37,323 bases of DNA, from positions 1-37,323 of the forward strand of contig JAKBUS010000024.1 in the NCBI GenBank assembly GCA_021841585.1. Direction: 5' to 3'. This document shows, in pieces, positions 20,021-37,323 of the stretch. A program made the position numbers and the translations under genes. The notes under the pieces were generated by a model. That model searched no databases. It was given only the letters and a program-made list of their open reading frames with translations, and had not been told where the DNA came from. Positions within the stretch are counted from its first letter, which is position 1. Each line of letters begins with the position of its first letter. Source of the stretch: Pseudomonadota bacterium (GTDB taxonomy: Bacteria > Pseudomonadota > Gammaproteobacteria > Acidiferrobacterales > Acidiferrobacteraceae).

Positions 20021-20057
20021 ACAACACTTCTTTTTGAAGGTTGAATGAAGATTAGCC

Positions 20058-20090: not shown

Positions 20091-20098
20091 CGTATGTC

Positions 20099-20126: not shown

Positions 20127-20159
20127 TCAATACATGTTGGACTGGTAGAGAAAGAATCC

Positions 20160-21479
20160 ATGCTGCCTCGACTTTCGGTTCATGTATTCCCTGGCGGTGA
20201 GCGGGTTCCGATGCTGCATCACGCCTGCGGGTTGCCGCTCTTCTACCCCACGCTTTACAGCACCACGCAACTTCGGAATGCCGGTGCTGCTGTCAACACG
20301 ATCCGCAACAAGCTTGCGGACATCGTGGTACTACTGCGTTGGGAGGAGTTCCATGGTCGGGATTTGATCTCAGAGTTTGCACAGGGAAACTTTCTCACCG
20401 TCGCGGACATTGTTTCGCTGCGGGATTTTGCCAAACTTGACATGAGAGACCAGATGCAGGCTGCAAAACCAAGGAGCCCCGGCAAAGGAGACGTCAACTT
20501 TCTGGAGTCGCAGGTAGCGTTCAGGCGTGCGAAGGCATCAATCGGCGGGCAGCAGCACTATAATCGGATCAGCACCTTCGCGGATTACTTGGAGTTTGTG
20601 GCCACCGTGGTGACGCAGCATCGGAACTCGCCCCTGATTGCCCAAGATATCGCCCACATGGCGGCGGCTATCCGAAAGCACCGGCCGCGTGGCTTGGCGT
20701 CGGATCACAATGACGACGTGGACTTGCGCTCGCCACCGCCTGAATTGGTTGAGCGCTTCATGGCTATGGGGGCGGAGGACTCCTCAGAAAATCCATTCCG
20801 AGATCCTGGGGTACGACTACGCAATGCCATCATCTTCGGATTACTACGCTACACAGGAATGCGGAGAGGCGAACTTCTAAGCCTGCGCCTTGATCAGTTG
20901 GATCTTGGGCATGAGCCACGGATCTGGGTGCGGCGCAACCAAGATGATAGCTATGACTCGCGCCGCTACCAGCCAGTATCCAAGACCAAGGAGCGCCTGC
21001 TCCCCATTCCGCTATCCTTGGCGGAACGAATTCAGAGCTACATCATGCAGGTACGCGCCAAGATTCCACCAGCACGTCGGCACCCCTATCTGTTGGTTAC
21101 GCACCGTAAAGGACCTACTTGGGGTAAACCCCTCACCCTGTCCGCGCTGAGCAGCCAAATTTTTGGTCGTATGCGAATGGTTGACCCTCAGTTTGCCTGC
21201 ATTCACCCGCATGCTTTTCGGCACCACTTTAATTATGAGCTTTCGGTTAGTATTGACAAGCAAAACGCTGCGGCAAGCAAAACTGCCGACGGATCGAGAA
21301 CTGCTCCTATCAGTGAAACGCGTGAGTTGGACGTTCGGGCGTTCCTGAATGGGCACCGTAATAAGGCCTCGGGAGCAGTGTATAATCGACGTCATATCCG
21401 TGAAACCAGCGACGCGGCGATCAAGAAGATTCAGGCCGAACTTGTGCGAAACTTGCGCGCCAGCGGGGAAGAAAATTAA
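20160..21479 (+). CDS. Tyrosine recombinase 1 of the trio (site-specific integrase)
   Basis: 439 aa from ATG 20160; the frame is open upstream to a TTG at 20106, but that would lie within the promoter. Catalytic residues of the phage-integrase family are visible: Arg235 in TGMRRGELLSL, HAFRH (His351, Arg354), and Tyr408 in GHRNKASGAVYNRRHI. All are canonical, so it should cut and rejoin DNA. It is first in a run of three recombinases and a small protein, as in gamma-mobile-trio islands and Tn554-like elements. Base composition is lower in GC than the host genes. Its 3' end overlaps the next gene. Confidence 0.88.
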   Translation: MLPRLSVHVFPGGERVPMLHHACGLPLFYPTLYSTTQLRNAGAAVNTIRNKLADIVVLLRWEEFHGRDLISEFAQGNFLTVADIVSLRDFAKLDMRDQMQAAKPRSPGKGDVNFLESQVAFRRAKASIGGQQHYNRISTFADYLEFVATVVTQHRNSPLIAQDIAHMAAAIRKHRPRGLASDHNDDVDLRSPPPELVERFMAMGAEDSSENPFRDPGVRLRNAIIFGLLRYTGMRRGELLSLRLDQLDLGHEPRIWVRRNQDDSYDSRRYQPVSKTKERLLPIPLSLAERIQSYIMQVRAKIPPARRHPYLLVTHRKGPTWGKPLTLSALSSQIFGRMRMVDPQFACIHPHAFRHHFNYELSVSIDKQNAAASKTADGSRTAPISETRELDVRAFLNGHRNKASGAVYNRRHIRETSDAAIKKIQAELVRNLRASGEEN

Positions 21480-23073
21480 TCCTAGCTTACTGAAAGCGGG
21501 TAGAAAACGGCGAGCCTTGTCGACCTCAAAAGACGGATACTCTTTTGATCCAAGTGATGACCATTGGAAGCTGAACAAGGATGTAACAATTTCGCTTATA
21601 GTGCCTGAGTTTTTGGATGAAAGCACAAGAGAGGGCTTTCGCGCGACCTTGCAACGCTATGCTGAGGAGATGTCGGCGCGGCACACGGAAAACATGGCAA
21701 CGCGATTCAAGCGGTATCTACGGGACACTGGCACATCCCATGTTACGTCGGCGAGCCTTATAAATTGGCGTGCACACTTGGGTAAGGATGAACAGTGGCA
21801 GTTGGGGGGACTCAAGGGTTTTCTAATAGCTTGGCACGATTATGGGTTTGGTGGCATTTCTGATGAAGTTGTAGACCTTCTGCAGGGCTGGAGGATCGCC
21901 GGCAATGAAAAGGGCGCTGCAGTGGCCAGCGGTTGCCCGGAAACAGGACCGTTCACGGATCTAGAAATCGCAGCGTTGCTTGATTGGGCCAATATGGCGG
22001 TTGCGAAAGACGATCTGATTTTTGAGGATTACGCCTATCTGCTCACGTTGGCGATGACGGCGCGGCGCCCCGTTCAGATTGCTGCTCTCCGAGGCAGGGA
22101 TCTTGTCCAGCAGACATCCAAGGATATACGACAGTTCAGCCTCAATTGTCCCCGTGCGAAGCAACGTGGTCTTGGCTTCCGGAAGAGTTTTCGGTCATTA
22201 GCCATTCTTGAAGACCTTTACCTGGTTTTGCAGCAGCAGCATCGTCAATCGGTTGCGCTCGTGGAAAAAGCCATCGGTGCAGGTCTCAACGCTGAGCTCG
22301 CTGCCGATATCCCGATTTTCCTTAATCAAGACATGCTTCCTGGAATTAGAGGGATTCAGCATCTCAAAGAGGCACTTTTCGGGCCGATCCCAGACCGACT
22401 GCATAGCACAACGAGTTGGCTTGCGAGCAGCCTGCGTCGGTGTGCCGTAAAATCGACGGCAAGATCTGAGCGAACCGGCGAGTTTATCCGACTCACAGCA
22501 ACGAGATTTCGGCATACGCGGGGTACCAAGCTTCGCCGCGAAGGATTCGGCCCTTTCGTCATCGCAGAGCTGCTGGACCATTCAGACATTCAGAATGTTC
22601 GCGTCTATACCGATAACACAGCGCAAGAGGCTGTCGTCATCAATGAACTTATAGGTCCTCAACTGGCGCCTTTCGCGCAGGCCTGCTTAGGTAGGCTTGT
22701 GCGGTCAGAGCGTGACGCAATTCGCGGCGAAGACCCGAGAAGTCGAATTCCAAATGATCAACAGCACTCGGTTGGGACCTGTGGCAATTATGGTTTCTGC
22801 GCTAGTGGTTATCGCGCCTGCTATACCTGCTATCACTTTCAGCCATGGGTCGATGGTCCGCATGAAGAAGTGCTGGCGGACCTTTACGAAGAGAAGGAGC
22901 GAGTTCGTGCCGCTGGCTGCCCGGACGTCGTGGTTAATGCCAATGACCAATTGATTCTGGCAGTTGAGCACTGCATTCTGCTCTGTAAACAGGCGAAGGT
23001 TCAATCGAGCATTGCGCACGCCCTAGAGGAGAATGATTATGGACAATCTTGTCCAATTCGTGGCGCGTGCTGA
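21442..23073 (+). CDS. Tyrosine recombinase 2 of the trio (GmtY-like / TnpB-like)
   Basis: About 543 aa. The start is uncertain: the only upstream ATG (21349) would overlap the previous gene by 131 bp, so I use TTG 21442; TTG 21517 is an alternative. The integrase core has the box I Arg in TARRPVQIAALRG, a variant box II ATRFRHTRGT (Thr where the first His normally stands) and LLDHSDIQNVRVYTDN with Tyr389. The C-terminus is cysteine-rich (CGNYGFCASGYRACYTCYHF), suggesting a metal-binding module. I place it with GmtY/TnpB from order, size and this tail. Recombinase is sure; the family name is not. Confidence 0.8.
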   Translation: MCETCAPAGKKINPSLLKAGRKRRALSTSKDGYSFDPSDDHWKLNKDVTISLIVPEFLDESTREGFRATLQRYAEEMSARHTENMATRFKRYLRDTGTSHVTSASLINWRAHLGKDEQWQLGGLKGFLIAWHDYGFGGISDEVVDLLQGWRIAGNEKGAAVASGCPETGPFTDLEIAALLDWANMAVAKDDLIFEDYAYLLTLAMTARRPVQIAALRGRDLVQQTSKDIRQFSLNCPRAKQRGLGFRKSFRSLAILEDLYLVLQQQHRQSVALVEKAIGAGLNAELAADIPIFLNQDMLPGIRGIQHLKEALFGPIPDRLHSTTSWLASSLRRCAVKSTARSERTGEFIRLTATRFRHTRGTKLRREGFGPFVIAELLDHSDIQNVRVYTDNTAQEAVVINELIGPQLAPFAQACLGRLVRSERDAIRGEDPRSRIPNDQQHSVGTCGNYGFCASGYRACYTCYHFQPWVDGPHEEVLADLYEEKERVRAAGCPDVVVNANDQLILAVEHCILLCKQAKVQSSIAHALEENDYGQSCPIRGAC

Positions 23074-25075
23074 ACGTGACGGTAAAGCGAATCTGGCCGA
23101 ATTTATCCGGTTGGCGAGGGAGGACTTGACCGCTTTCGGGACTGGAGGGGCCTGGGATAGCGATCAATGGCAACATAACGAGACCGTTGTGGTTTTTGCA
23201 ACTAAGACGGTGCCATTGACTGCCTACTCTTTCATACCTATGGCAGAACCGTTCAAGGAGTTTGCCAAAGCGTACGTCCGCTACCGCTATAGTTGCCGCC
23301 CTGTAAAAAGCCTGGCCAATCTGATACAGGCCTTACGCTGTGTGGAGGCAGCACTTCTCTCCGCCACTGGAGGAGCAGATATCTCAAAGTTGACGGGAGC
23401 CGTCATGGATGTCTGTGCCCAGAAGTGTAGGGAGTTCTATACCAGCGATGAGGTGTTATGCAATACGGGGCGGGAGATTGCAAAACTATTCGATTTTTTG
23501 CGAGACAAAAGCCTTGTTCCTTCGCTTCCTGTATGGAAATCGCCCTTCAAGAAACCCGTGATTCTGACTGAGGATATCGGTCCGGCTGGACAGGCGCATC
23601 GTTCCTCTAAGCTTCCGGCAAACGATACCATGTTGATGGTGGCAGACCTCTTTGCGCAGGCCACTGATCCTGAAAGTCGCTACTTTTCATCGATTCTCAT
23701 CCTGTTGATGGCGACTCCTAGTCGCATATCGGAGGTACTTCAACTGCCGATCGACTGCATTCAATGGGAGTCCGACGATGCCGACGTGCCGCAGATGTAC
23801 CTTCGGTGGCGAGCGGCGAAAGGCAAAGGTGCCATGAAAAAGTGGGTCGTGCCCGCCATGCACGATGTAGTCGAAGAAGCTGTTCGACGTTTAGATGAAA
23901 TTGGTGCTCCTGCGCGGGAAGCTGCCAGATTCGCATTTGAAAACCCGGGTCGATTTATGAGGCATGTGGATTGTATTGCAGATCCAAATCTTGAGTCGAA
24001 ACGACCACTTTTTCCTGATGAATTTTGTGCTGCGATTGGGGTTAAATATTCCCGTCATGGTCGGTTGCGCGATGACTCGCTGAGTTGGTCTCAAGTGAAA
24101 GTAGAAAAGAATATCAAGGAGCTTATAGATCAAGGCGCCACCACTTATAGCGATCTCGCGAATTATGTGGTGCAGACATTTGGCGGGCTATACTGGCCAT
24201 ATATTGATGCAGCGCAAACGGTGAAAACATGGGATGCGCTTTGCCTTCACCGGGAAAATGAATTCCACAAAGAATTTTCGGTCAAACCCTTTTCCTGGAG
24301 ACTGCCGAGCGCAAACGAGGTGAACGTGCGTCTCAGTTCCGAAAAGGGATTGTCGCTTTTTGATCGCTTGGGGATGAAGAATCCTGATGGCTCCAATATT
24401 AAACTCACCACCCATCAGCTAAGACACTGGCTCAGTACGATGTCGGAGCGCGCCGGCATGGATGAATTCACCTTGGCTCAATGGGCCGGACGTGCTAGGG
24501 CTGCGGACAATCGCCATTACGACCACCGCTCCCCGGAAGAACGCCTGGAATCTGCACGGGACCTTCTCTCGATTGATACTCCATCAGTGCTTGAACGCTT
24601 CAAAGCGCGTCAGCCCGTGACCTACCAGGAACTGGGGGTCGATCGACTTGGTACGGCCAAGGCAACGCTCTATGGTATGTGCGTCCACGACTATGCGATG
24701 GCACCCTGCCAGAAGCAACGTGAGTGCATGACTTGTAAGGAGCACCTTTGCATCAAGGGCGATCACGTAACACTGGAAAGAATTCGGAGGCTTGAGACCC
24801 AAACCCAGCTACTGCTTGAAAAAGCGCAGCAGGCAGATAAAGACGGTGATTTTGGGGCAGATCGGTGGGTTGATAATCATAAGTGGAAATTGGCTCATGT
24901 AAGGGCTATGAGGATGGCATTGGAGCATCCGCAAATTCCGGATGGTGCTCCCCTAAGAATTCCCGAGGGACATGATCCTTCTGCGGTTCGCCGTGCGCTG
25001 ATGGATCTCGGTATGTTGGACCGGCCTGAATCGGAAATCGGAAGCATAGTGGCTGCTCCTTTAATGTTGGAATAA
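23039..25075 (+). CDS. Tyrosine recombinase 3 of the trio (GmtZ-like)
   Basis: 678 aa from ATG 23039 (GGAGA 7 bp upstream; ATG 23033 sits too close to the SD). It starts inside the end of recombinase 2. Integrase residues: Arg229 in TPSRISEVLQLP, HQLRH (His459, Arg462), and Tyr494 in WAGRARAADNRHYDHRS. After the catalytic domain comes CVHDYAMAPCQKQRECMTCK, a cysteine cluster resembling the tail of recombinase 2, then a helical region. The long N-terminus (about 200 residues) probably binds DNA arms. It fits the gamma-mobile-trio integrase GmtZ in size and order. Confidence 0.82.
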   Translation: MDNLVQFVARAERDGKANLAEFIRLAREDLTAFGTGGAWDSDQWQHNETVVVFATKTVPLTAYSFIPMAEPFKEFAKAYVRYRYSCRPVKSLANLIQALRCVEAALLSATGGADISKLTGAVMDVCAQKCREFYTSDEVLCNTGREIAKLFDFLRDKSLVPSLPVWKSPFKKPVILTEDIGPAGQAHRSSKLPANDTMLMVADLFAQATDPESRYFSSILILLMATPSRISEVLQLPIDCIQWESDDADVPQMYLRWRAAKGKGAMKKWVVPAMHDVVEEAVRRLDEIGAPAREAARFAFENPGRFMRHVDCIADPNLESKRPLFPDEFCAAIGVKYSRHGRLRDDSLSWSQVKVEKNIKELIDQGATTYSDLANYVVQTFGGLYWPYIDAAQTVKTWDALCLHRENEFHKEFSVKPFSWRLPSANEVNVRLSSEKGLSLFDRLGMKNPDGSNIKLTTHQLRHWLSTMSERAGMDEFTLAQWAGRARAADNRHYDHRSPEERLESARDLLSIDTPSVLERFKARQPVTYQELGVDRLGTAKATLYGMCVHDYAMAPCQKQRECMTCKEHLCIKGDHVTLERIRRLETQTQLLLEKAQQADKDGDFGADRWVDNHKWKLAHVRAMRMALEHPQIPDGAPLRIPEGHDPSAVRRALMDLGMLDRPESEIGSIVAAPLMLE

Positions 25076-25078
25076 CAG

Positions 25079-25534
25079 ATGCCCAAGAGAATTGTTACTA
25101 AAGCAAGCCTTCCGAAGATTCTGCGCGAGCTGGATCGCTGGGAGGGAAAACTTACCTGGCCCTTGTTTTGCGAGCGTGTTGCCAAGGTTCTAAATGTTGC
25201 ATCCGTTTCGAAGCACACCATGTATCTGTATCCTTCGATCAAGGAGCGTTTCCAGCAGCGGCAGAAGGATTTGCGCGAGGCTAGCGATGCGCTTCCAAGG
25301 GATTTCACGCTAGAAGCTGCGAATCGCCGGATTGCTGAGTTGGAAGCGCAGGTTAAGCGTCTGGAAGAAACCAATGCCTTGCTGCTTGACCAATTCCGTC
25401 GTTGGCAATACAACGCGTATGCGAACAACGTGCGGATGGATTTGCTAGCCTGGGACAGGCCATTGCCGGAGGTGAATCGATCAGGGCGTGTTCGAACGGT
25501 GAAGAAAAACGATGGCAATGACCAGAGATTGTGA
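25079..25534 (+). CDS. Small coiled-coil accessory protein of the recombinase trio (GmtX/TnpC-like)
   Basis: 151 aa, 3 bp after recombinase 3. The N-terminal half (about 8-60) looks like a small DNA-binding helical domain ending in SVSKHTMYLYPSIKERFQQR. Residues about 80-105 (LEAANRRIAELEAQVKRLEE) form a clear coiled coil. Tn554 TnpC and the gamma-mobile-trio protein GmtX are small proteins in the same position; in Tn554 TnpC influences orientation and efficiency of transposition. Homology is inferred from position and architecture only. Confidence 0.6.
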   Translation: MPKRIVTKASLPKILRELDRWEGKLTWPLFCERVAKVLNVASVSKHTMYLYPSIKERFQQRQKDLREASDALPRDFTLEAANRRIAELEAQVKRLEETNALLLDQFRRWQYNAYANNVRMDLLAWDRPLPEVNRSGRVRTVKKNDGNDQRL

Positions 25535-25622
25535 ATAGCAATGAATTCTTTGTGTGTTGTTGAGACCCATTTTTGGTCCTGCACAAACTTATAGTGAAGA
25601 ACAATGATCAGCGAGGATGGGC

Positions 25623-28600
25623 ATGCCAAGAATATTCGATAACATTGAAAAGACACTCTTGCCGGCCCTACAAGAGACGCTAAAGGTCGCTGAACGCGCT
25701 GATTTCTGTGTTGGGTACTTCAATCTTCGCGGCTGGCGTCACATTGCGGGACATGTTGACCGGTGGGCGGGTGGCGAAGGCCAGGGCTGCCGCTTGCTGG
25801 TTGGCATGCATGTCACTCCCAGTGATGAACTCCGTCAGGCCCTAGGTATGCGTGAAGACGATGATGGAATCGATAACCAGACCGCGATACGCGAGAAGCG
25901 CCGTATTGCGGAAGAATTTCGCCAACAGCTTACCTTCGGCGTTCCGACTAATGTCGACGAAGCTGCACTGCGGCAACTTTCGGCACAGATTCGTGCCAGG
26001 AAGCTAATCGTCAAGGTCTATCTGCGCCACCCGTTGCACGCCAAGCTGTACTTGCTACATCGTCAGGACGCAAATAACCCGGTCACTGGTTTTCTAGGGA
26101 GTTCGAATCTGACACTTGCAGGTCTTGCCAAGCAGGGGGAGCTGAATGTCGATGTGTTGGAACATGATGCCTGCAACAAACTGGCGGATTGGTTCGAGGA
26201 TCGCTGGCGTGATCGCTGGTGTATCGATCTCTCTAAGGAACTGGCTGATATCATCGACGAGAGCTGGGCAGGCGATCGTCTGCTGTCGCCCTATCACGTC
26301 TATCTTAAGATGGCCTTTCACTTGGCGCAGGAAGCACGTGCTGGTCTTTCTGAATTTCGCATTCCCGCCGTTTTTGGTGAAACATTGTTAGACTTCCAGG
26401 TGGCTGCAGTTAAAATTGCCGCGCACCATCTAAACAAGCGCGGTGGTGTTCTGATCGGCGATGTGGTCGGACTGGGTAAATCGATGATGGCCACCGCCCT
26501 GGCCAGGGTATTTGAGGACGACTACCACACTGAAACGCTCATCATCTGTCCTAAGAACCTCGTTTCGATGTGGGAAGACTATGCACACCGTTATCGCCTG
26601 TACGCCAAGGTACTGCCGCTATCCAATGTCCTGAACGAACTCCCAGAGAAAACCCGGCGTTATCGGTTGGTCGTGATAGATGAATCGCACAACCTACGCA
26701 ACAAACAAAGCAAACGTTGGAAAGTCATCCGCGATTATATCGAGCGTAACGACAGCCTGACCGTTCTTCTCTCGGCCACGCCCTATAACAAGACCTATCT
26801 CGATCTTTCCGCGCAACTAGCCTTGTTCCTGAATGAAGATGCCGACATTGGCATACGCCCCGAAAAACTGCTGGCGGAGTTGGGCGGCGAGCATGAATTC
26901 ATCCGTCGCCATCAGTGTGGTGTGCGGTCGTTGGCGGCATTTGAGAAGAGCGAAATTCCCGATGACTGGCGCGATCTTATGCGCCTGTACATGGTGCGCC
27001 GCACGCGCGGCTTCATCATGCAGCACTACACCCGCGAAGACGAGCGCGGTAAATACCTGCTGTTCCCGGATGGCCGCAAATCCTACTTTCCGAAGCGCCT
27101 GCCCAAGAACCTCAGTTTCAAAATCGATGATGCGAATCCGTCCGATCCCTACGCGCGCTTCTACAGCGCCCCAGTGGTCAACGCGATCAACGAACTGATC
27201 CTGCCGCGCTACGGCTTGGGCAACTACATCGCCCCCAAGCCCAAGACGCCACCCACGCCGCACCATGCGAAGATTATCGAAGGACTTTCGCGTGCTGGTA
27301 CACGCCTGATGGGCTTTTGCCGCACCAATCTGTTCAAACGCCTTGAAAGTGCCGGCCCGGCATTCATCCTGTCCATCGAGCGTCACATCTTGCGTAACTT
27401 CATCGTTCTACACGCCATCGAGAAAGGCCTGGACATTCCGTTGGGCACGCAGGGTGCCGAACTGCTCGATACGCGCCATTACGACGAAGATCCCGATAGC
27501 CTGCTGGCGGACGAAAATGGCGACGATGACGTAACCGATCCGACGGCGAGCAACGGTTTGCGCACCGAGGCTGACTATCGAGCACGGGCTGCCAAGGCTT
27601 ACGAGGCTTATAGGGGTGCGCTGAAAAGCCGCTTCAAATGGCTGCCGGGAACATTGTTCATCAAGGCACTCGCCAAAGACTTGCTCATGGATGCGCAATC
27701 GCTACTCAAGGTGCTGGCGATGTGTGGTGAATGGGATCCCAAGCGGGATACAAAACTTGGTACCCTGGTCGAACTGATCAACCAGCGCCACCTGAAAGAA
27801 AAGCTCCTCGTCTTCACCCAGTTTGCAGACACCGCCCGCTATCTCAAGGCCCAGTTGGTGGCGCGTGGTATCAAGCAAGTGGAGGAGGCCACCGGGCTGA
27901 GCGCAGACCCGACTTTCTTGGCTTGGTGTTTTTCGCCGGAATCGAACGGCAAGCGCGAGCAGATCAAAAAGGCCGAAGAGCTGCGTGTGCTGATTTCCAC
28001 AGATGTGCTCTCCGAAGGCCAGAACCTGCAGGACGCGCACATCATCGTCAACTACGACCTGCCCTGGGCCATCATCCGCCTGATTCAGCGTGCTGGTCGA
28101 GTCGACCGTATCGGGCAGCAGTCTGACACCATCCTCTGCTATTCCTTCGTGCCGGCTGATGGTGTGGAGCGGCTCATCAACCTGCGTGCCAGGGTCAAGC
28201 AACGCCTGATCGAAAACGCCGAGGTTGTAGGCTCTGACGAAAGCTTCTTCGATGATGACACGGATGAAGAATTGATCCGCGATCTGTACACCGAGAAGAA
28301 CGGCATCCTCGACGACGATGGCGACACCGAGGTTGACCTGGCCTCCTACGCCTACCAGATCTGGAAGAACGCCACGGATGCCGATCCATCGCTGGCATCC
28401 AAGATCGAGGCCATGCCCAACGTGGTATATGCCACCAAGGCCCACGAGCACAATCCCGCATCGCCTCGGGGTGTGCTGGTCTATATGCGCACCGCGCAGG
28501 GCAACGACGCGCTGGCCTGGATGGACGAGGCCGGTAAGCCGGTTACCCAGTCCCAGCTCACCATCCTCAAAGCCGCCGCCTGCTCGGCGGATACGCCGGC

Positions 28601-29003
28601 CCTGCTACGCACCGAGCATCACCACGCGCTCACGCAACAAGGCCTGGCCCACATTGTTGAAGAAGAAAAATCCTTCGGCGGTGCTTTAGGCCGCCCCTCT
28701 GGCGCACGCTTCAAGGCCTTCGAGCGCCTCAAGCGCTTCCGCGAGGGGGTGGGCGACAGGCGTGATCTGTTCATCACCGACGAATACGTGCGCCGCATCG
28801 ACCGGGTAATGGAAGAAATCTACCGTTATCCGCTCTACCAGTCGGCGACCGACAGCCTCAACCGCCAGCTCAAGGCCGGCATTGGCGACCATCAGTTACT
28901 GGACCTCGTTTTCTCGCTGCGCGAAGACGGGCGTCTGTGTGTGATTGACGATCAGGATCAGCAGAAGGAGCCCAGTCTCATCTGCTCGATGGGCTTGGCC
29001 TAA
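25623..29003 (+). CDS. PLD-nuclease / SNF2-family helicase (defence effector)
   Basis: About 1126 aa. GAGG at 25613-25616 favours ATG 25623 over 25617. The N-terminal phospholipase D-like nuclease domain has HAKLYL (His139) and GSSNLT (about 159), a single HKD motif as in dimeric PLD restriction nucleases. A SNF2-type helicase core follows: GDVVGLGKS (about 279-287), VVIDESHN (about 351), LLSATPYN, LLVFTQFADTARYL, and QRAGRVDRIGQQ (about 821). All key residues look intact. An 88-bp gap upstream with TATAGT at 25590-25595 may carry a promoter. It most likely translocates on and cleaves unmodified DNA together with the next gene product. Confidence 0.88.
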   Translation: MPRIFDNIEKTLLPALQETLKVAERADFCVGYFNLRGWRHIAGHVDRWAGGEGQGCRLLVGMHVTPSDELRQALGMREDDDGIDNQTAIREKRRIAEEFRQQLTFGVPTNVDEAALRQLSAQIRARKLIVKVYLRHPLHAKLYLLHRQDANNPVTGFLGSSNLTLAGLAKQGELNVDVLEHDACNKLADWFEDRWRDRWCIDLSKELADIIDESWAGDRLLSPYHVYLKMAFHLAQEARAGLSEFRIPAVFGETLLDFQVAAVKIAAHHLNKRGGVLIGDVVGLGKSMMATALARVFEDDYHTETLIICPKNLVSMWEDYAHRYRLYAKVLPLSNVLNELPEKTRRYRLVVIDESHNLRNKQSKRWKVIRDYIERNDSLTVLLSATPYNKTYLDLSAQLALFLNEDADIGIRPEKLLAELGGEHEFIRRHQCGVRSLAAFEKSEIPDDWRDLMRLYMVRRTRGFIMQHYTREDERGKYLLFPDGRKSYFPKRLPKNLSFKIDDANPSDPYARFYSAPVVNAINELILPRYGLGNYIAPKPKTPPTPHHAKIIEGLSRAGTRLMGFCRTNLFKRLESAGPAFILSIERHILRNFIVLHAIEKGLDIPLGTQGAELLDTRHYDEDPDSLLADENGDDDVTDPTASNGLRTEADYRARAAKAYEAYRGALKSRFKWLPGTLFIKALAKDLLMDAQSLLKVLAMCGEWDPKRDTKLGTLVELINQRHLKEKLLVFTQFADTARYLKAQLVARGIKQVEEATGLSADPTFLAWCFSPESNGKREQIKKAEELRVLISTDVLSEGQNLQDAHIIVNYDLPWAIIRLIQRAGRVDRIGQQSDTILCYSFVPADGVERLINLRARVKQRLIENAEVVGSDESFFDDDTDEELIRDLYTEKNGILDDDGDTEVDLASYAYQIWKNATDADPSLASKIEAMPNVVYATKAHEHNPASPRGVLVYMRTAQGNDALAWMDEAGKPVTQSQLTILKAAACSADTPALLRTEHHHALTQQGLAHIVEEEKSFGGALGRPSGARFKAFERLKRFREGVGDRRDLFITDEYVRRIDRVMEEIYRYPLYQSATDSLNRQLKAGIGDHQLLDLVFSLREDGRLCVIDDQDQQKEPSLICSMGLA

Positions 29004-29035
29004 GCCCACAGGGAACCACAGGGAAAGAAAAGAAC

Positions 29036-32000
29036 ATGACGATTGATGCCGCCCGCTTCCAGAAACTGCTCAGCGAATGCAAGCTAGAGCAGCTTTTCAA
29101 CGAGCTCGGTTGGGAGCGCCCCGACCTTAGGCCGCAGGCCATACAAGCCAACGGCGAGTCTTTCACGCTGACCAACATCGCCCACAAGCGTCGCGTGGCG
29201 GTATTCCGCTGCTCGCCGGACAGTACAGGCAAGGTGCCCTCGCGACCGGTGCTGCTCAAGATCGAGAAGGAGGTGGCTAAGCTCGCCCACGAGCACCTCT
29301 TGGTATTTGCCGATGCCAAGGAGTCAATGCTCACCTGGCTGTGGGTCTCGCGCGCACCCGGACAGCCCACCACGACCCGCACCCACACTTGGCACGAGGG
29401 GCAGAGCGGCGAATCGTTGCGGCAGAAGCTCTCCCAGATTGTTTGGTCACTGGAAGAAGAGGAGGCCATCACGCTCACCGACGTGATCACCGGCCTCAGG
29501 CATGCCTTCGACCGTGACCGCATCTCCAAGAACTTCTACGACAAGTTCAAGGCCCAGCACGAAGCCTTTGCCAAATTCATCAAGGGACTGACTGCGGCCG
29601 GCGACCAGGCCTGGTATGCCTCGCTGATGCTTAACCGGCTGATGTTCGTCTACTTCATCCAGAAGAAGGGCTTCCTCGATGGCGACGAAAACTATCTCGC
29701 CAACCGCATGGCCCAGGTTCAGGCCGCGGCTGGCAAAGGAAAGTTCCACAGCTTCTACCGCCAGTTCCTGCGCCGCCTTTTCCATGAAGGATTGGGTCAG
29801 GCCAAGGGCGAGCGCAACCCCGAACTCACCCGCCTGATCGGGGATGTGCCTTATCTGAACGGCGGTCTCTTCTCCCTGCATGAGCTGGAAGAGGCACACC
29901 CCGGCATCGATGTGCCCGACGAGGCCTTTGAACGGCTATTCGCCTTCTTCGACGCCTGGGACTGGCATCTCGACGACCGACCGCTTTCCAGTGGCAGGGA
30001 AATCAACCCTGATGTGCTGGGCTACATCTTCGAGAAGTACATCAACCAGAAGCAGATGGGGGCGTACTACACCAAGGAAGACATCACCAAATACATCAGC
30101 AAGAACACGGTTATCCCGCATCTGATCGAGCAGGCGTGCGAGCGCTGCAAGGTGGCCTTCGAAGGCGAGGTGTCAGTCTGGAACCTGCTCCAAGCCGACC
30201 CCGACCGCTATATCTATCCGGCTATGAAAACCGGCGTCATCGACGCCGCCGGCAATGTTGTTCCAGAATCGGCTCTGCCCGATTTCGTGCAGACCGACAT
30301 GAAGGATGCCAAGGCGCGCATGTTCGACAAGCGCTACAACCTAGGCGAGGCGGTATTCCACACTGCCACCGGCGAGCGCGGCACGCTGCCCACCGAAACC
30401 TGGCGGGAGTATGTGGAACGGCGCACCCGCTGCCTGGCCGTGCGCGACAAGCTAGCCAAGGGCGAGGTGAAAAGCGCCGACGATCTCATTACCCTGAATC
30501 TGGACATCTGCCAGTTCATGCAGGATGTGATCGACACTGCTACCAGCCCTGATCTGCTGCGCGCCGTCTGGCAGACCATCGTCGGCCGTGTGCCGGAAAA
30601 GGCCAACGAGAAATTCCGCCTCGGCATCACCATCCTCGACCCCACTTGCGGTTCGGGTGCCTTCCTGTTCGCCACCCTCAACATTTTGGAACCGCTCTAC
30701 GAAGCCTGCCTGGAGCGCATGGAGGGTTTCGTCGAGGATGCGAAAAAGCTGGGCAAGACTGGCGAAATCGATTTCGCCAAGGTGCTGGCCGAAGTCGAGA
30801 AGCATCCCTCGCGCCGCTACTACATCTACAAGAGCATCATCCTGCACAACCTCTTCGGCGTGGACATCATGGCCGAGGCGGTGGAAATCTGTAAGCTGCG
30901 CCTCTTCCTCAAACTGGTGTCGCAGGTGGATGCCGGGCGCGAGCTGGAGCCGCTGCCCGACATCGACTTCAACATCCGTACTGGCAACACTCTGGTCGGC
31001 TACGCCACCCAAGCGCAGTTCGATGCCATCGGCTCCGGAAAGATGGAGTACGGCGAACAGCAAGACCATAAGGCACACATCAAAGTAGAATTGGCCGACC
31101 TTGCTGATGCGTTCGATTTCTTCCGTGGTCAGCAGACCGTGCATGGCGGCAAGGTGACGGCGGAGGACAAGCGCAAGCTGAGGGACAAACTTTCCGCGCT
31201 GAGTCTGGAACTGGATCGCTATCTGGCCCGCGACTATGGCATCGACCCCGACAAGGCCAAGGCGTTCAACGCTTGGCGCGAAAGTCACCAGCCCTTCCAC
31301 TGGTTCGCCGAGTTCTACGGCGTGATGCGCGAGGGCGGATTTGATGTGGTGATTGGGAATCCACCATATTTGGAGTTCAAAGAGGTCGGCTATGGATTTT
31401 CTGAATCATACAAATCGTTAGAGACTAGCGCTGTACATGCACTTTGCATTGAACGAAGTGAATCGTTGCTCGCCAACGCAGGAGCAATGAGCATGATTGT
31501 TCCGCTCGCTTTGGTGTCTACTCAACGAATGAAGGTTGTTCAGGAAATTCTGGAGAGGCAGCGAACAACTTGGTATTCCGACTTTTCGTGGAGACCGGCC
31601 AAGCTGTTTGATACAGTCAATCGAGCTTTGACGATATTTGTTGTCATCCCAAGCACAAGAAAATCAGAGGTACATAGCACTGGGTATATAAAGTGGACTT
31701 CAGAAACTCGTGATGGGCTGCTCGACCGATTGATGTATTGCCGGATTCCACAGGATCGGCCCGCATTTTGGGTCTCCAAGATCCAAAGTGAAATAGAACT
31801 GCCTATTCTCGAAAAAATGCTGTCTATCAAAGAGACAATAGCTAATTACATGATGAAACGAGGGGATGAGATTTATTACAGGTGCGATGGTGGGTTGTAT
31901 TGGAAAGTGTTTACAGACTTTGCTCCAAGATTCATCCTGAATGGCACGGAGGGAAGCTCCAGTCGCGAAACAAAGATATCCGTTACAAAAGGATCGACAA

Positions 32001-32374
32001 ATAATCTCGTAGCTTTACTAAGTAGCAACTTGTTTTGGTGGTGGTATACCGTCACCAGCAATTTACGCCATCTTAATCCATATGATGTGCACAACTTTCC
32101 TGCCCCCAAGCTGGCGGTCACAGATAAATCTCTTGCAAATCTTGGGAGCGAGTATTTGCGAGACATTGATTCAAACAGTTCCATGCTTGTGCGAATGCAG
32201 AAACGCACTGGAAAGACGGAAACACAGAGCTTCAAGATTCAGAAATCAAAGACGATTATTGACAAGATTGACTTGGCATTGAGCAAGGCTTACGGCCTGT
32301 CCGATGAAGAAACCGACTTCATTATCAACTACGACATCAAGTACCGCATGGGCGGGACCGACGACGAAGAATGA
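29036..32374 (+). CDS. Eco57I-type N6-adenine DNA methyltransferase
   Basis: 1112 aa. SAM-binding motif I is DPTCGSGAFLF (about 535-545), and the catalytic motif IV is NPPY at 775-778 (FDVVIGNPPYLEF), as in gamma-class adenine methylases of the Eco57I/TaqI/PglX type. The N-terminal 300 residues are helical and typical of large single-chain enzymes of this class. No independent nuclease motif is obvious, so cleavage is probably supplied by the PLD-helicase 32 bp upstream. From about 31340 to 32280 (TaqI-like specificity part) the DNA turns AT-rich, unlike the rest of the gene. The stop overlaps the next start by 4 bp. Confidence 0.88.
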   Translation: MTIDAARFQKLLSECKLEQLFNELGWERPDLRPQAIQANGESFTLTNIAHKRRVAVFRCSPDSTGKVPSRPVLLKIEKEVAKLAHEHLLVFADAKESMLTWLWVSRAPGQPTTTRTHTWHEGQSGESLRQKLSQIVWSLEEEEAITLTDVITGLRHAFDRDRISKNFYDKFKAQHEAFAKFIKGLTAAGDQAWYASLMLNRLMFVYFIQKKGFLDGDENYLANRMAQVQAAAGKGKFHSFYRQFLRRLFHEGLGQAKGERNPELTRLIGDVPYLNGGLFSLHELEEAHPGIDVPDEAFERLFAFFDAWDWHLDDRPLSSGREINPDVLGYIFEKYINQKQMGAYYTKEDITKYISKNTVIPHLIEQACERCKVAFEGEVSVWNLLQADPDRYIYPAMKTGVIDAAGNVVPESALPDFVQTDMKDAKARMFDKRYNLGEAVFHTATGERGTLPTETWREYVERRTRCLAVRDKLAKGEVKSADDLITLNLDICQFMQDVIDTATSPDLLRAVWQTIVGRVPEKANEKFRLGITILDPTCGSGAFLFATLNILEPLYEACLERMEGFVEDAKKLGKTGEIDFAKVLAEVEKHPSRRYYIYKSIILHNLFGVDIMAEAVEICKLRLFLKLVSQVDAGRELEPLPDIDFNIRTGNTLVGYATQAQFDAIGSGKMEYGEQQDHKAHIKVELADLADAFDFFRGQQTVHGGKVTAEDKRKLRDKLSALSLELDRYLARDYGIDPDKAKAFNAWRESHQPFHWFAEFYGVMREGGFDVVIGNPPYLEFKEVGYGFSESYKSLETSAVHALCIERSESLLANAGAMSMIVPLALVSTQRMKVVQEILERQRTTWYSDFSWRPAKLFDTVNRALTIFVVIPSTRKSEVHSTGYIKWTSETRDGLLDRLMYCRIPQDRPAFWVSKIQSEIELPILEKMLSIKETIANYMMKRGDEIYYRCDGGLYWKVFTDFAPRFILNGTEGSSSRETKISVTKGSTNNLVALLSSNLFWWWYTVTSNLRHLNPYDVHNFPAPKLAVTDKSLANLGSEYLRDIDSNSSMLVRMQKRTGKTETQSFKIQKSKTIIDKIDLALSKAYGLSDEETDFIINYDIKYRMGGTDDEE

Positions 32375-32883
32375 AACCCGCGCCCGCCACCTTGCCATCC
32401 CACTGCGTCCAGCGTGTCGATCCTGATCTCTCCACCCAAATAGTCGGCGCTGGTGAGACGGTGCTGCTATCGGAACTGCTGCTCGGCCTCATCGCCTCCC
32501 GCGAATGCCCCGGCCACGTTCTGCTCGAAATCCTCGACCGCGTGCCGGAATGGGTCAAGGCCGGACGGGTGATCGTCAGCGGTTTCCACTCGCCGCTCGA
32601 ACAGCAGATGCTGCGCTCGGTGCTTCGGCGCAAGAGGTGTGTGGTCAAAGTGCTGGCACGTGGCATGACTGACTACCGCCCAACGGCGGAAGAGCGCGAA
32701 CCGCTGGCGGCTGGCCATATGCTGGTCATCACCGCCTGTCCGCCGCAAGTGCGCCGCACCACCCGCGAAACGGCCCTGGAGCGCAATCGATTGGTATTGG
32801 CGCTTGCCAGCGAGATCGTCATACCCCACGTCGCTGATGACAGCCCGCTTGCCGCGTTGCTGAAAGAGCGGAGGTCGGCTTGA
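32371..32883 (+). CDS. Short DprA-like (SLOG/Rossmann) protein
   Basis: 170 aa. The order GRVIVSGFHSPLEQQML, then VVKVLARG, then a late ERNRLVLALASEIVI parallels the DprA/Smf core: the VSGLA...H loop, the nucleotide-like pocket and the RNRIIAGLS helix. The winged helix and SAM-like parts of true DprA are missing. Short SLOG-superfamily proteins of this type are predicted to bind nucleotides or nucleic acid ends and recur in bacterial conflict loci. The ATG overlaps the methyltransferase TGA (ATGA), so the two are probably translated together. Ligand and role are unknown. Confidence 0.65.
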   Translation: MKPAPATLPSHCVQRVDPDLSTQIVGAGETVLLSELLLGLIASRECPGHVLLEILDRVPEWVKAGRVIVSGFHSPLEQQMLRSVLRRKRCVVKVLARGMTDYRPTAEEREPLAAGHMLVITACPPQVRRTTRETALERNRLVLALASEIVIPHVADDSPLAALLKERRSA

Positions 32884-33713
32884 TGGCCTTCAGCCCGATC
32901 TGGTTCTTGTTGGAACAGGAGGGGCTGCTGGCTCAGGCCTGCCTGTGCAGCGGTCTGACGGCATTACGTCGCGCCAACCTTGGCGACAAGAAGGGGCTTT
33001 TCTATTCGGCCTTTTTCGAGTTGTCGATTGGCTTCGAGCGGGTGTTGAAACTGGTCTTGATCCTGGACCATATGGCTCGCAACCAGATGGTTCCACCCAA
33101 CAGCAAGACCGTCGAGGATTACGGCCACAAGCTGCGTTCTCTGTTCGACTCTGCCAAGGATGTCTGCGCTACGCAGGGGATCACTGCGCTGGATGCATTT
33201 CAGCCGGATTCGTTGTCGATGGTCATCCTAGGTTTTCTGGACGACTTCGCACACCCCGGCGGACGCTATTCCAATATCAACAAACTGACCGGGCAGAGGC
33301 ATCAAGCGATGGCCGATCCCCTCGTGCACTGGGGTGAAATTGCCAGGCAGATCATGCAATCCCAGGCCACACCCAAGGAACGTCAACGTGCTGAATTGAA
33401 TGGGCAGATGGCAAGATTTGCCTTTGGAGATGCTGCGGCCAGCCTGATGAGTGACCTCAACAAGCAACCGATGGATGTCACGATGCTGCTCGTTCGAGCC
33501 TCTGAACTAGATACTGCGTCCAAACATGCGATCTATGCGCTGGTGACCTTGATCGCCGCATTGCGAGAAGTGCTCGACTCACTTTGTGCTCGCGCACAGG
33601 CAGCCAAGCCGGCTGGCAGATCTCACCTCTCCGACGTGCCGGACATGAAGGAGTTTTTTCAGTTTGCCTGGGCAGATCGGCAATACGTGATGCGAAAGCG
33701 TCAGTGGCCATGA
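32883..33713 (+). CDS. Uncharacterised helical protein, HEPN-like N-terminus
   Basis: 276 aa; ATG 32883 overlaps the previous stop (TGATG), with GGAGG upstream. I do not recognise a named family. Residues about 35-95 (KKGLFYSAFFELSIGFERVL then KLVLILD ... DYGHKLRSLF) have the pattern of HEPN domains: an A/S-FxxxxxGxExxLK helix and a later GHxL. HEPN proteins are often toxin RNases or sensors in defence systems. The usual RNase R-x4-6-H motif is not clear, so activity is not claimed. The remainder is helical without further motifs. Confidence 0.5.
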   Translation: MAFSPIWFLLEQEGLLAQACLCSGLTALRRANLGDKKGLFYSAFFELSIGFERVLKLVLILDHMARNQMVPPNSKTVEDYGHKLRSLFDSAKDVCATQGITALDAFQPDSLSMVILGFLDDFAHPGGRYSNINKLTGQRHQAMADPLVHWGEIARQIMQSQATPKERQRAELNGQMARFAFGDAAASLMSDLNKQPMDVTMLLVRASELDTASKHAIYALVTLIAALREVLDSLCARAQAAKPAGRSHLSDVPDMKEFFQFAWADRQYVMRKRQWP

Positions 33714-33826
33714 TCATGAACTTGGATCGAAGAGGTGAAGCCAGGTCCGAGGACAAGACAATACCCTCGATAAGTAGTCAGATGGGCCAGCGCCTCGTGG
33801 ATATGGTTGAGATCCGGGGAAATTAG
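33710..33826 (+). CDS. Possible small ORF (38 aa) at the end of the cassette
   Basis: ATG 33710 overlaps the previous stop in the ATGA manner seen earlier in the cassette. It encodes MIMNLDRRGEARSEDK and so on, ending VDMVEIRGN. No family is recognised. It may be a real coupled peptide, the start of a gene truncated at the element end, or chance. The repeated coupling pattern is the only argument for it. Confidence 0.25.
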   Translation: MIMNLDRRGEARSEDKTIPSISSQMGQRLVDMVEIRGN

Positions 33827-33916
33827 TGGCTGCCGGCTGCCTGTTATAGCCAAAAATTCCCTATATGGTAAAATATAGATCAACAAACACTCGTAAAAAC
33901 ATCATAATAACAATAA

Positions 33917-33931
33917 GATATATGATATATC
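33917..33931. repeat. AT-rich perfect inverted repeat near the element right end
   Basis: GATATAT-G-ATATATC: 7-bp arms around one base. It lies within the most AT-rich part of the window, next to a second inverted repeat at 33861-33878. It could be a recombinase or regulator binding site at the element end. No matching copy was found at the left end. Confidence 0.4.
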
Positions 33932-34003
33932 CTCAATCAATATGGGCGTAACAAGTGTGCACAACCGTTCTAGATGTTCCCACCAAGACGCGGTATGTAA
34001 ATA

Positions 34004-34038
34004 AGATCCCTGCAGGCCTTGTGTTTGCAGGGATTTTT
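34004..34038 (+). terminator. Terminator-like hairpin at the element right end (possible attR)
   Basis: Stem ATCCCTGCA / TGCAGGGAT (9 bp) around an 11-base loop GGCCTTGTGTT, then five T. It resembles the ssb terminator at 20058-20090 in sequence as well as form (about 17 of 21 positions by eye). It may be the original ssb-side sequence displaced by insertion, or the far-end copy made by the element. It would also stop transcripts leaving the cassette. Confidence 0.55.
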
Positions 34039-34387: not shown

Positions 34388-34966
34388 ATGATAGGGAATT
34401 GCGCTGGCGGGCGCCGCGCGGGCCGAGTGCGGGCGTTGTGGGGGAGTGTGCTCGGGGTAGGGGCACTGTTCCAGGTGGGCATTGCGTCGGCGGGGCTGCT
34501 GGTGCGCACCAGCGCCTTCAAGGGGGCGACATCATCGCAGGTGCGGGCCATGCTTGCCCGAGATAATGGCACCGCGCACGGCACGATCGTCTCTTATCAC
34601 GGGTCCGTGGCGCGGGTCGTGGTCGTGGTGCCGCAGCCCGAGTTTCCGTTTCCGAGGTTCGAGGTTCAGCATGTCGACAACCCGACGCTCGAGTTTCGGG
34701 CCGGGGCGACCGTGAAATTCACGTTCATTGATCGCGTCATGGGCTTTAGTCACAGCTTTCAAATCACCCGAAAGGCGCCACCGTTCCCTATGTTTCCCAA
34801 GATCCAGCCGGTGTTGGCGGGGACCGATCTGTCACCGCCGCCCAGAAGCGGGAAGTCAATGTACGCGAAATTCACCTGGCACCCGGCCGCCGGGCACTAC
34901 TATTACCTTTGCGCGATCCCGGGACATGCTCATATGGGCATGTTCGGTGCGATAATCGTGAAGTAA
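34388..34966 (+). CDS. rus: Rusticyanin (blue copper protein)
   Basis: 192 aa from ATG 34388 (AGGAGG 6 bp upstream decides the start over ATG 34373). A signal peptide of about 36 residues ends ASAG, so the product is periplasmic. The type 1 copper ligands of rusticyanin are all present: His122 (GFSHSFQI), Cys175, His180 and Met185 (YYLCAIPGHAHMGMFG). FPFPRFEV, NPTLEFRAGATV and FTWHPAAGHYYY also match the A. ferrooxidans protein closely. It carries electrons from outer-membrane cytochrome to oxidase or the uphill branch in acid iron oxidation. It stands alone here, without the cyc2-cyc1-cox genes. Confidence 0.95.
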   Translation: MIGNCAGGRRAGRVRALWGSVLGVGALFQVGIASAGLLVRTSAFKGATSSQVRAMLARDNGTAHGTIVSYHGSVARVVVVVPQPEFPFPRFEVQHVDNPTLEFRAGATVKFTFIDRVMGFSHSFQITRKAPPFPMFPKIQPVLAGTDLSPPPRSGKSMYAKFTWHPAAGHYYYLCAIPGHAHMGMFGAIIVK

Positions 34967-35133: not shown

Positions 35134-35997
35134 ATGGCAGTCGCGAAATCGCAGGGGCCTCTGGAGCTGCTCCGTCAGGGCGTCGCCCTCTATCGGCGGG
35201 GCTTCGCGCTCTTTACGACGGAGTTCGTCATTTTGCAGTTGGCGAACATTTTGGTCTTCGCGTTTTTGGCGTCTGCCCACGTTCTGCCCGTGCGCGCGCC
35301 GAAGACGTGGTCGGCGGGTTTGGTTCTGGCCCTGTTCTCCTGGGGTTTTGCCGTTGTGGAGATTGTCTTTCAGATCGGCCTCATGCGCGGTCTGGCGAAT
35401 GTCGCTGACGGCCGCGATGCGCGTTTCATGGATCTCTTGTGGGGCGTGAAGCGTGGTGAGGCCTGGTTGCTCGCCATCGTCTTGCAGGTACTGGGGCTTG
35501 TAATCTTCCAGGTCCTGGCATGGTTCACGGTGGCAAGCGGTATGCATGCGACCGGTAATCCCCATCATCCCTTCGTCCTGCTCGACGGCCCATTGTGGCC
35601 GTTCTTGTCCCTGCTCACGGCGATCCTGGCGCTGGGGATCTTTGGCAATACCGCGGCCATGGCCATGGCCATGGCGTCACGTCATGCGCTCCCGGCATTC
35701 GCGGCCCTACGCGCGGCCTTGAAGACCTTCCGTCACGGTTACCGCCGCTATCTGTTCCTGAATTTTGCCGGCATCGGCGTCCTGATGGGGGTGGGCCTGA
35801 CGATTGCCGGGATCTCCATCGTGCTCCTGATCCTTTTGCACTTTCTGGGGGCGGGTCCCATCGGCCACGCCCTGCGCGCCCTCGTCTTCCTGGCGGCCTT
35901 ATGCGCGTTTGTGGCCGCTGCGCTGATGTGGGCCATGGTGCTGCTGGCCGCCTTCGTGACGGCAAGCGGCATGATCGGGCCCGCTAACAGGTCCTGA
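35134..35997 (+). CDS. Multi-pass inner-membrane protein, unknown function
   Basis: 287 aa. ATG 35134 is chosen because GAGGAGGGGG lies just upstream; in-frame ATGs at 35077 and 34909 would extend the protein, the latter into rus. About six hydrophobic segments are seen (for example FVILQLANILVFAFLASAHV and GVGLTIAGISIVLLILLHFL). A positively charged loop KTFRHGYRRYLF lies between later segments. It resembles loosely the BPSS1780/DUF975-type membrane proteins but no family can be named. It follows rus by 167 bp; co-transcription is possible but unproven. Confidence 0.7.
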   Translation: MAVAKSQGPLELLRQGVALYRRGFALFTTEFVILQLANILVFAFLASAHVLPVRAPKTWSAGLVLALFSWGFAVVEIVFQIGLMRGLANVADGRDARFMDLLWGVKRGEAWLLAIVLQVLGLVIFQVLAWFTVASGMHATGNPHHPFVLLDGPLWPFLSLLTAILALGIFGNTAAMAMAMASRHALPAFAALRAALKTFRHGYRRYLFLNFAGIGVLMGVGLTIAGISIVLLILLHFLGAGPIGHALRALVFLAALCAFVAAALMWAMVLLAAFVTASGMIGPANRS

Positions 35998-36628
35998 TCG
36001 CACCCGGTCTTGCGACGCGCCGCCAAGTCTTGGTCTAACGCGCATCGGGGTCCCATCGTCTTTAGTTGCCGCCCACGCTTCCGCGGGCGGGCGGTCGATT
36101 CCGTTGGTATGGAAGGCTGCGCGGCAGGCCGCATGAGACTTGCAAGCCGAGCGGCCTATCGCCCGTCCGCGAGCGAAAGGCCCATGAGGCGATTGCGATA
36201 GCGGCGTGATGTCACGCTTAAGCCCCAATTCCCGATTTTACCTCGGGCGGCCGCAGGTCAAGGGACAGTATCAGGGTACCCCATCCCGTGCGCCTTTTGC
36301 AGAAAACCGTTCCCCACGCCCCTCGCATCACCACATCCGTTCCATCTGTGCCAGGTCTTGGTAGTGCAATCAGGGGCCACGGTATGTCGCGAGGTGTCGG
36401 GTGGCGATTGATGGATTAAGCGGCACTGGCCGTTCTTCCATCGCCTTGATGTGCCGAAACCGCGCCTTTCCTTCAACGATAATTAATCGATAATTTTCTT
36501 AACGACAAAAATAGAAAATAGTTTGGCTACATAAAAAAACGCAATAGGACATTCTTCGCGACGCCTGGATACACTGGCTGCGCATGAAATCGGCAGGGAA
36601 TGACAATCATAACAAAGTGGAGGAGATC
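35998..36628. other. Gene-poor intergenic region
   Basis: 631 bp without a supported gene on either strand. It holds a short inverted repeat GCGTGA-TG-TCACGC (36204-36217), and from about 36470 an AT-rich stretch with a direct repeat of CGATAATT (36477-36484 and 36488-36495). The latter region probably carries the promoter of the following membrane protein, but no clear -35/-10 pair with good spacing was found. Confidence 0.55.
36477..36495. repeat. Tandem CGATAATT octamer, 11-bp period
   Basis: Two exact copies of CGATAATT start 11 bp apart, one helical turn, in the AT-rich region about 135 bp upstream of the last gene. This geometry suits cooperative binding of a regulator or an UP-element-like function. 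The regulator is unknown. Confidence 0.4.
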
Positions 36629-37323
36629 ATGAAACGAATGAAAGGCCATTCAGGCCTATGGCGTGATCATCCGATCATGCTGGCGGTCGGTTTATGTCTG
36701 TTTGTGGTGGGGGCGCATCCGGCTTGGGCCGCAACGGTAGCGACTGCCGGAGGCGGGGGTGCGACGGCCTCCCTGGCGCAGATCGCCAAGGAGTTGGCGC
36801 CAGCCAAGCCGTTTTTCGTGACGAGCGATGGGAAATGGATCGCGCCGCTCATGTATATCGGTTCGTTCGCGCTGCTTGCCAACGGTCTCATGCATCTCGA
36901 CCCGGCGCGCAAGAAGGCCAGCGAGTTTGGCGTGGGCATCATCACGGTGACGGCGGGCATCATGTGGTGGCCGTTTCTGATTGCGATGATGGCGTCGCAG
37001 GGGCTCGGGCCGCTTACGAACCTCGTGACCGGTCTTGCGGGCATGTACGCGTTCTTTTTCACGGTCCTCGGGCTGACCCAGATCTTCCATGTCGAATCGC
37101 GTCATCAGCTGGGCGCGGTGGCGATCTTCATAGGGTGGCTCACGGGCGTCTACGCCTATTTCTTCCTGACGACACCGGCCCCAACGGGCGGGACCTGGGT
37201 GTATCACTTCACCATAGCCCTGGTATGGTTCGTGGCCATGAATCTCGCGGGCCTGTATATGCAGGGGCGGATGAAAGAGCGCGTGCTGGGGTGGGTGGTG
37301 TCATTCGCCGCGATCTATACATT
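36629..37323 (+). CDS. AmiS/UreI-like membrane transporter (partial)
   Basis: The frame is open to the window end: 231 residues without stop. ATG 36629 follows GGAGGAG closely. A signal-like first segment (LMLAVGLCLFVVGAHPAWAA by feel of residues 17-36) leads into a Gly/Ala-rich linker. At least five hydrophobic segments follow. APLMYIGSFALLANGLMHLD and the later WFVAMNLAGLYMQGRMKERV are arranged like AmiS/UreI proteins, which conduct urea, short amides or acetate. In an acidophile a UreI-like channel could serve acid tolerance, but no urease or amidase gene is in view. The substrate is not determinable and the family assignment is tentative. Confidence 0.45.
   Translation, partial: MKRMKGHSGLWRDHPIMLAVGLCLFVVGAHPAWAATVATAGGGGATASLAQIAKELAPAKPFFVTSDGKWIAPLMYIGSFALLANGLMHLDPARKKASEFGVGIITVTAGIMWWPFLIAMMASQGLGPLTNLVTGLAGMYAFFFTVLGLTQIFHVESRHQLGAVAIFIGWLTGVYAYFFLTTPAPTGGTWVYHFTIALVWFVAMNLAGLYMQGRMKERVLGWVVSFAAIYT

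Follow-up and report, generated by a model that had tools for sequence, protein, structure and literature searches.

Near the end of a stretch of 37,323 nucleotides of bacterial DNA (the window) lies a rusticyanin-like gene with restriction and helicase genes upstream and a membrane protein gene downstream. Rusticyanins are blue copper proteins that carry electrons in acidophilic iron oxidisers. The locus raises the question of whether this gene is the iron-oxidation rusticyanin of its genome, belongs with its defence-related neighbours, or has a role of its own. The window is one of the 124 contigs (C34) of a genome of 2.57 Mb (G000). The genus is probably Acidiferrobacter, and the order of the rus operon equals that given for this genus in PMC10654088, which in the portion cited here describes this operon for Acidiferrobacter and, for Acidithiobacillus, rus genes that stand alone.

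The rusX gene and its product

We refer to the gene by the working name rusX. Its features in the window are as follows.

34388..34966, + strand: rusX, a stand-alone rusticyanin paralogue of 192 amino acids; the domain matching rusticyanin is residues 42-192
34751..34753, + strand: rusX codon for the copper ligand His122 (His85 in A. ferrooxidans numbering)
34910..34942, + strand: rusX codons Cys175 to Met185, the copper-binding loop CAIPGHAHMGM (containing Cys138, His143 and Met148 in A. ferrooxidans numbering)

The frame at 34388-34966 translates to 192 residues plus a stop, and its ATG at 34388 is preceded by a GAGGAGG stretch. The NCBIfam rusticyanin model TIGR03095 matches the product with an E value of 3.5e-43 and 147.3 bits, narrowly passing the cut-off of 146.7, and the orthologue in genome G008 scores 145.4 bits, slightly under it. 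Sequence matches in the PDB comprise nine solved chains, all of them rusticyanins (best 1a3z, E 1.8e-51). An AlphaFold2 model, for which 18 window and locus sequences were the input, has a mean pLDDT of 76.5, with values below 50 at residues 1-38 and 139-145; its nine best Foldseek hits in the PDB are likewise all rusticyanins (TM-score by target 0.89-0.93, rmsd 1.7-1.8). Judged on this predicted model, rusX has the rusticyanin fold. Family model, fold and the tree described below all place rusX inside the rusticyanin family, a placement that the earlier note had made a test of its reading.

The same note had named four type 1 copper ligands, and the translation bears this out, with His122, Cys175, His180 and Met185 at those positions; the long motif stretch it pointed to, WHPAAGHYYYLCAIPGH, is also present. 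Across the family the corresponding ligands His85, Cys138, His143 and Met148 are correctly spaced in all ten rusX sequences that we identified, and together with Ser86 (A. ferrooxidans numbering) they are unchanged in 20/20 aligned rusticyanins, including 10/10 rusX. Substitutions of Ser86 lower potential and acid stability according to the discussion of PMC12723479, and the introduction of that paper words it the opposite way; because the paper contradicts itself here, a high potential for rusX is an expectation drawn from the kept Ser86. Residues 21-39 form a single hydrophobic stretch behind an Arg-rich start, with ASA preceding Gly36, which is in keeping with an export signal.

The operon rusticyanin of the same genome

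We found three rusticyanin-like places in G000: rusX in the window, a gene at C4:4789-5322, and a distant cupredoxin on contig C9. The possibility that rusX is the only rusticyanin of its genome is rejected by the operon-type copy on C4. The C9 gene (L044 9006-9659) falls in a clade also present in other genera of the order and adjoins a c-di-GMP phosphodiesterase-like gene.

Contig C4 reads coxB (cut by the contig edge)-coxA-coxC-small gene-ctaB-small gene-rus-ctaG, with genes named by similarity to those of locus L048, which were typed with NCBIfam and where coxB, coxA, coxC and ctaG score below curated cut-offs. The genome therefore does hold iron-oxidation genes, whose absence would have spoken against the earlier note: coxB (cut), coxA, coxC, ctaB, a canonical rus and ctaG. 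All eight operon Rus that we found sit between ctaB and ctaG. In relatives (L045, L046, L048, L052) the upstream part of the cluster is cyc2-cyc1-cup, and the Cyc2 of the cluster retains the CATCH heme motif. NCBIfam has no models for Cyc2, Cyc1 and cup, which were named by heme motifs, length, position and the operon order of PMC10654088.

Of the three cytochrome and oxidase genes that the earlier note wished to see searched for (cyc2, cyc1 and cox), the cox genes were found. A cyc2 search of the 14 genus genomes matched 12, the two without a match being G000 itself and G008, and the best cyc1 match in G000 reaches 35% (contig C56, E 7.4e-11) and is probably another cytochrome. A search of this genome for cup, run without a positive control of its own, was empty. 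Contig C4 starts within coxB, the G008 contig starts directly before cup, and the cyc2-cyc1 stretch occurs in two copies in G013 (91% DNA identity over 2217 bases), the second copy also being present in G001 and G004. On these grounds we infer that the cyc2/cyc1/cup gap in this assembly is likely due to an assembly break, real absence being the alternative.

The second cyc2-cyc1 pair of G013, G001 and G004 (L113, L114, L115) lies away from the rus operon, and its Cyc2 retains the heme motif. In G001 and G013 the second cyc2 copies seem at first to be interrupted by an in-frame stop; this lies upstream of the likely start, and the heme motif is kept in both. Membrane proteins beside the second pair in G013 and G001 look like hydrogenase-4 subunits. 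In G001, cyc1 forms two separate frames in both copies (L045 15825-16622, L114 4071-4859), which may reflect a frameshift or a gene-caller error.

The two rusticyanins of G000 belong to the same family and organism and are 54% identical over 195 columns. Compared with A. ferrooxidans Rus (RusA; TIGR03095; PDB 1rcy, 1a3z), the C4 protein is 83% identical over 150 columns and rusX 55% over 151. With A. ferrooxidans Rus, rusX has in common the predicted fold, ligand spacing, Ser86 and the WHPxxGxYYYxCxIPGH stretch, but it falls in another clade and has no adjoining cyc or cox genes. In a maximum-likelihood tree of 39 rows, the eight operon Rus group with A. ferrooxidans Rus (97/94), and the ten rusX form a group of their own (87/94, where 87 is below the usual 95). 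The tree carries a warning of long branches elsewhere and does not settle how its deeper groups branch. Membership of the RusA type was judged in two ways. By clustering with A. ferrooxidans Rus, rusX lies outside that clade; by position in a cyc2-cyc1-cup-cox-rus operon it lies outside as well, its context being ssb and/or leuA in 10/10 loci. Together these comparisons indicate that rusX is a separate paralogue, distinct from the operon rusticyanin of its genome.

Of the 151 aligned columns, 29 have no residue in common between the ten rusX and the nine operon-type sequences (A. ferrooxidans Rus and the eight operon Rus), so that a changed function of rusX is possible. Eight positions are fixed differently, from operon type to rusX K25T, A44V, L46Q, G48E, G84S, V98M, T133H and T146M (A. 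ferrooxidans numbering), which suggests an altered contact surface. The two ligand loops (79-88, 138-148) hold seven of the 29 columns; from their length one would expect about four, which makes for no strong enrichment. Relative to A. ferrooxidans Rus the changes include N80 to V/I, G84 to S, D88 to Q/E, T133 to H, A145 to H/Q/E/K and T146 to M. The HMGM near the axial Met that the earlier note had singled out is the window's form of a trait of the whole group: in 10/10 rusX position 145 is H/Q/E/K and 146 is Met, and in operon Rus these are Ala and Thr.

We found rusX in 10 of 14 genus genomes at 66-100% identity. In the order as a whole, 18/57 genomes gave any match; those other than rusX were operon Rus, one further divergent rusticyanin (G007), fragments and distant cupredoxins. 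A whole operon-type rus accompanies rusX in 7/10 genomes; G006 has only a fragment at a contig edge, and in G009 and G012 no operon-type rus was found. These three genomes are drafts, but in them rusX might be the sole rusticyanin.

The proposed role of rusX

The reading that we favour, at a probability of roughly 60%, is that rusX is an auxiliary periplasmic blue-copper electron carrier beside the operon Rus, encoded by an old paralogue of the genus at ssb-rusX-leuA next to which an island was later inserted. Its family, ligands, predicted fold, separate clade, fixed locus, purifying selection and the inserted island beside it come from the analysis itself; its export, copper loading, potential, partner and physiological role are inferences. 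The protein would be exported to the periplasm and loaded with copper, and would cycle between Cu(I) and Cu(II) at low pH as a soluble carrier of single electrons. It would act beside, not in place of, the operon Rus of the same genome, in an auxiliary or condition-specific manner, and its altered surface could give it a different redox partner. As an auxiliary protein it could shuttle electrons in parallel, serve another partner, or buffer copper. Because the canonical Rus sits with the oxidase genes, an auxiliary role for rusX is the most likely one; that operon rus was not found in 2/10 rusX genomes slightly lowers our confidence in it. The suggestion that the window's gene makes acid iron oxidation likely is upheld in so far as the sequence supports a functional rusticyanin-type blue copper protein, but the canonical iron-oxidation role belongs, by sequence and context, to the C4 gene.

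Second rusticyanins have been described elsewhere. RusB of Acidithiobacillus, like rusX, stands beside another rusticyanin (RusA), and we liken the two by description only; RusB is missing in strain CF27 and hence held to be non-essential, according to an excerpt of PMC5468388. Searches with TIGR03095 across 369 genomes class-wide and 398 phylum-wide, and a search of plasmids, brought up no sequence recognised as RusB; nor did the class-wide and phylum-wide searches meet any genome recognisable as an Acidithiobacillus with rus. Acidihalobacter prosperus resembles the rusX genome in having two rusticyanins in one organism (Forms I and II). The cited part of PMC5216662 gives this iron oxidiser's proteins as 46% and 43% identical to A. 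ferrooxidans Rus. Three genomes that may be Acidihalobacter (G317, G422, G423) have rusticyanins in other clades of the 39-row tree than rusX. In the literature that we searched, as far as its accessible text extends, we found no account of a second rusticyanin in Acidiferrobacter, though one may already stand in the genome analysis of Issotta et al. 2018, to which PMC8889020 and PMC8239418 refer.

A more specific proposal, which we offer tentatively and think unlikely as it stands, is that rusX is a neofunctionalised Acidiferrobacter lineage with a redox partner other than Cyc1/Cyc2, forming a second electron-transfer route (for example uphill to the bc1 complex, sulfur-derived, or anaerobic and Fe(III)-linked). 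If so, iron-oxidising cells of the genus would sort electrons between two rusticyanins. Alternatively, rusX could serve the same Cyc2-Rus-Cyc1-Cox route as operon Rus, as a redundant shuttle set apart by nothing but the level or timing of its expression. The predicted fold and ligands are the same as in operon Rus, the rus operon is present in the genus, and the RusA/RusB isozymes offer a precedent (PMC5468388 and PMC5017800, both in excerpt). However, the eight fixed differences and the 29/151 columns without a common residue, seven of them in the ligand loops, suggest without proving a changed contact surface, and we regard simple redundancy as doubtful.

The main functional rival of the auxiliary carrier is copper tolerance, in which rusX would chiefly buffer or sequester periplasmic copper and electron transfer would be secondary. 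The passages of PMC7463520 cited here report that in A. ferrivorans ACH at 400 mM copper rusB rises about 22-fold and rusA 7.6-fold, and that E. coli is said to gain copper resistance from A. ferrooxidans Rus; the polar residue and Met in the rusX ligand loop, in place of the Ala and Thr of operon Rus (A145 to H/Q/E/K, T146 to M), would also fit. Yet purifying selection has preserved the four ligands with their spacing and Ser86, and there is no copper-export gene among the typed conserved neighbours, although the two membrane proteins belong to no family, so that we hold copper tolerance to be rather improbable as the chief function.

The number of rusticyanin genes does not equal the number of iron-oxidation operons, as the genus keeps a second rusticyanin outside the operon and TIGR03095 names both alike. 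A paralogue pair with eight fixed differences is also a system for finding the residues that set the partner and potential of a rusticyanin.

The conserved locus and the inserted island

The isolation of the gene from the rus operon, remarked on for the window, is real and proved to be a trait of the whole rusX lineage in the genus. The conserved surroundings of rusX in the window are as follows; gene calls at rus loci were made with a codon-usage caller.

16338..19214, - strand: uvrA, conserved context
19538..20020, + strand: ssb, which in relatives is the conserved gene upstream of rusX
35134..35997, + strand: polytopic membrane protein without a family match, in 5/10 rusX loci
36584..37323, + strand: second membrane protein without a family match, running past the window end, in 5/10 rusX loci

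In 8/10 loci ssb lies upstream of rusX, separated from it by the island in the window's case, and in 8/10 leuA lies downstream; where either is not seen, the contig or window ends before such a gene. As described earlier, restriction and helicase genes lie upstream and a membrane protein downstream, and neither of the two membrane proteins between rusX and leuA has a match in Pfam or NCBIfam. An obligate partnership of rusX with the membrane protein at 35134..35997 was rejected, as only 5/10 loci have the gene. Four of the 14 genus genomes are without rusX. One of them, G007, carries uvrA-ssb-leuA on one contig with no rusX between and has an operon rus, so rusX is dispensable; in the other three (G003, G005, G011) no ssb adjoins leuA in the stretches examined, and these loci are hence uninformative. 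G007 also encodes another divergent rusticyanin on a long branch (L049 1868-2335). A gene near it is presumably transposase-like.

Counting by the simple Nei-Gojobori method over the mature part, with some synonymous distances near saturation, gave dN/dS of 0.067-0.199 for rusX (12 pairs, 8/10 rows) and 0.037-0.081 for operon rus (9 pairs, 7/8 rows). These values indicate that rusX is under purifying selection, weaker than that on operon rus. That rusX is a pseudogene copy of rus in decay is very improbable. Its faster evolution compared with operon rus (0.07-0.20 against 0.04-0.08) and its absence from some genus genomes would fit, but all ten frames are free of internal stops and near full length, the ligands are invariant, and dN/dS is well below 1.

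By inspection, the aligned upstream regions of four rusX genes contain no clear regulatory motif, and a promoter scan returned 2 sites against 1.3 in shuffles, neither near rusX. Searches of viral contigs and plasmids returned no relative. A scan of genome contigs with one sequence returned a single locus, probably the same record as G004:C57.

The defence-related genes upstream form an island, with the following parts.

20022..33967, no strand: inserted island, outside the rusX unit, with recombinase-like genes, a Snf2-type helicase, a type IIG restriction-modification gene and a DprA-like gene
20106-21479: recombinase-like gene; NCBIfam tyrosine recombinase matches below cut-offs
21349-23073: recombinase-like gene; NF041502 integrase, 599.8 bits, cut-off 350
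23033-25075: recombinase-like gene; Pfam integrase, 27.3 bits against 27.1
25617-29003: phospholipase-D/Snf2-type helicase
29036-32374: type IIG restriction-modification protein
32371-32883: DprA-like protein
34008..34032 (about), + strand: displaced ssb terminator, CCCTGCAGG...CAGGGATTTTT, which adjoins ssb in L035, L038 and L040

The island, which also encodes an orphan 277-residue protein, is about 13.9 kb long and separates the stop codon of ssb from the terminator of that gene, which now lies 14 kb from ssb. The 95 bases from 33965 match the ssb end and the directly following bases in L035 at 89%, with shorter similar matches in L038 and L040. This post-ssb match was seen in 3/9 relatives' stretches; none is listed for L034, L037, L039 and L041, L034 having a different sequence behind ssb, and L036 and L042 do not reach ssb. 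The sequence TTCTAGA flanks the island at 20015 (with the ssb stop codon) and at 33968. It is the interruption of the ssb downstream region that marks the island as an insertion; the 7-base repeat alone would be weak evidence.

Among matches longer than 40 bases, the island sequence has none in the nine relatives' stretches, and the seven relatives with ssb in view have no island at that place. The main parts of the island have a G+C content of 0.525 and 0.564 and its last 250 bases 0.422; the 20 kb preceding the island have 0.635, the sequence following it 0.61 and rusX 0.623. That rusX is cargo of this defence or mobile island is extremely improbable: in the window the island ends about 0.4 kb away from it, but nine relatives carry it in matching context with no island there (ssb in view in seven), its G+C is core-like and the island's is not, and conserved ssb downstream sequence separates the two. 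As the island is missing at that place in the seven relatives that reach ssb, it has no shared history with rusX; the adjacency of a defence element had been rightly seen, but the closeness is accidental, the element being an insertion beside a conserved gene.

The ssb-rusX interval may be a hot spot of insertion, with L034 8335-9716, L037 5386-5649 and window 20022-33967 as its instances. The small gene in the L034 interval is, we assume, antitoxin-like, and the gene piece in that of L037 is presumably a nucleotidyltransferase-like fragment. Elsewhere in the window, 10692-10772 matches the Rfam family Alpha_RBS (RF00140) with 40.2 bits (gathering score 38) and overlaps the start of a small gene at 10740 in a ribosomal protein region.
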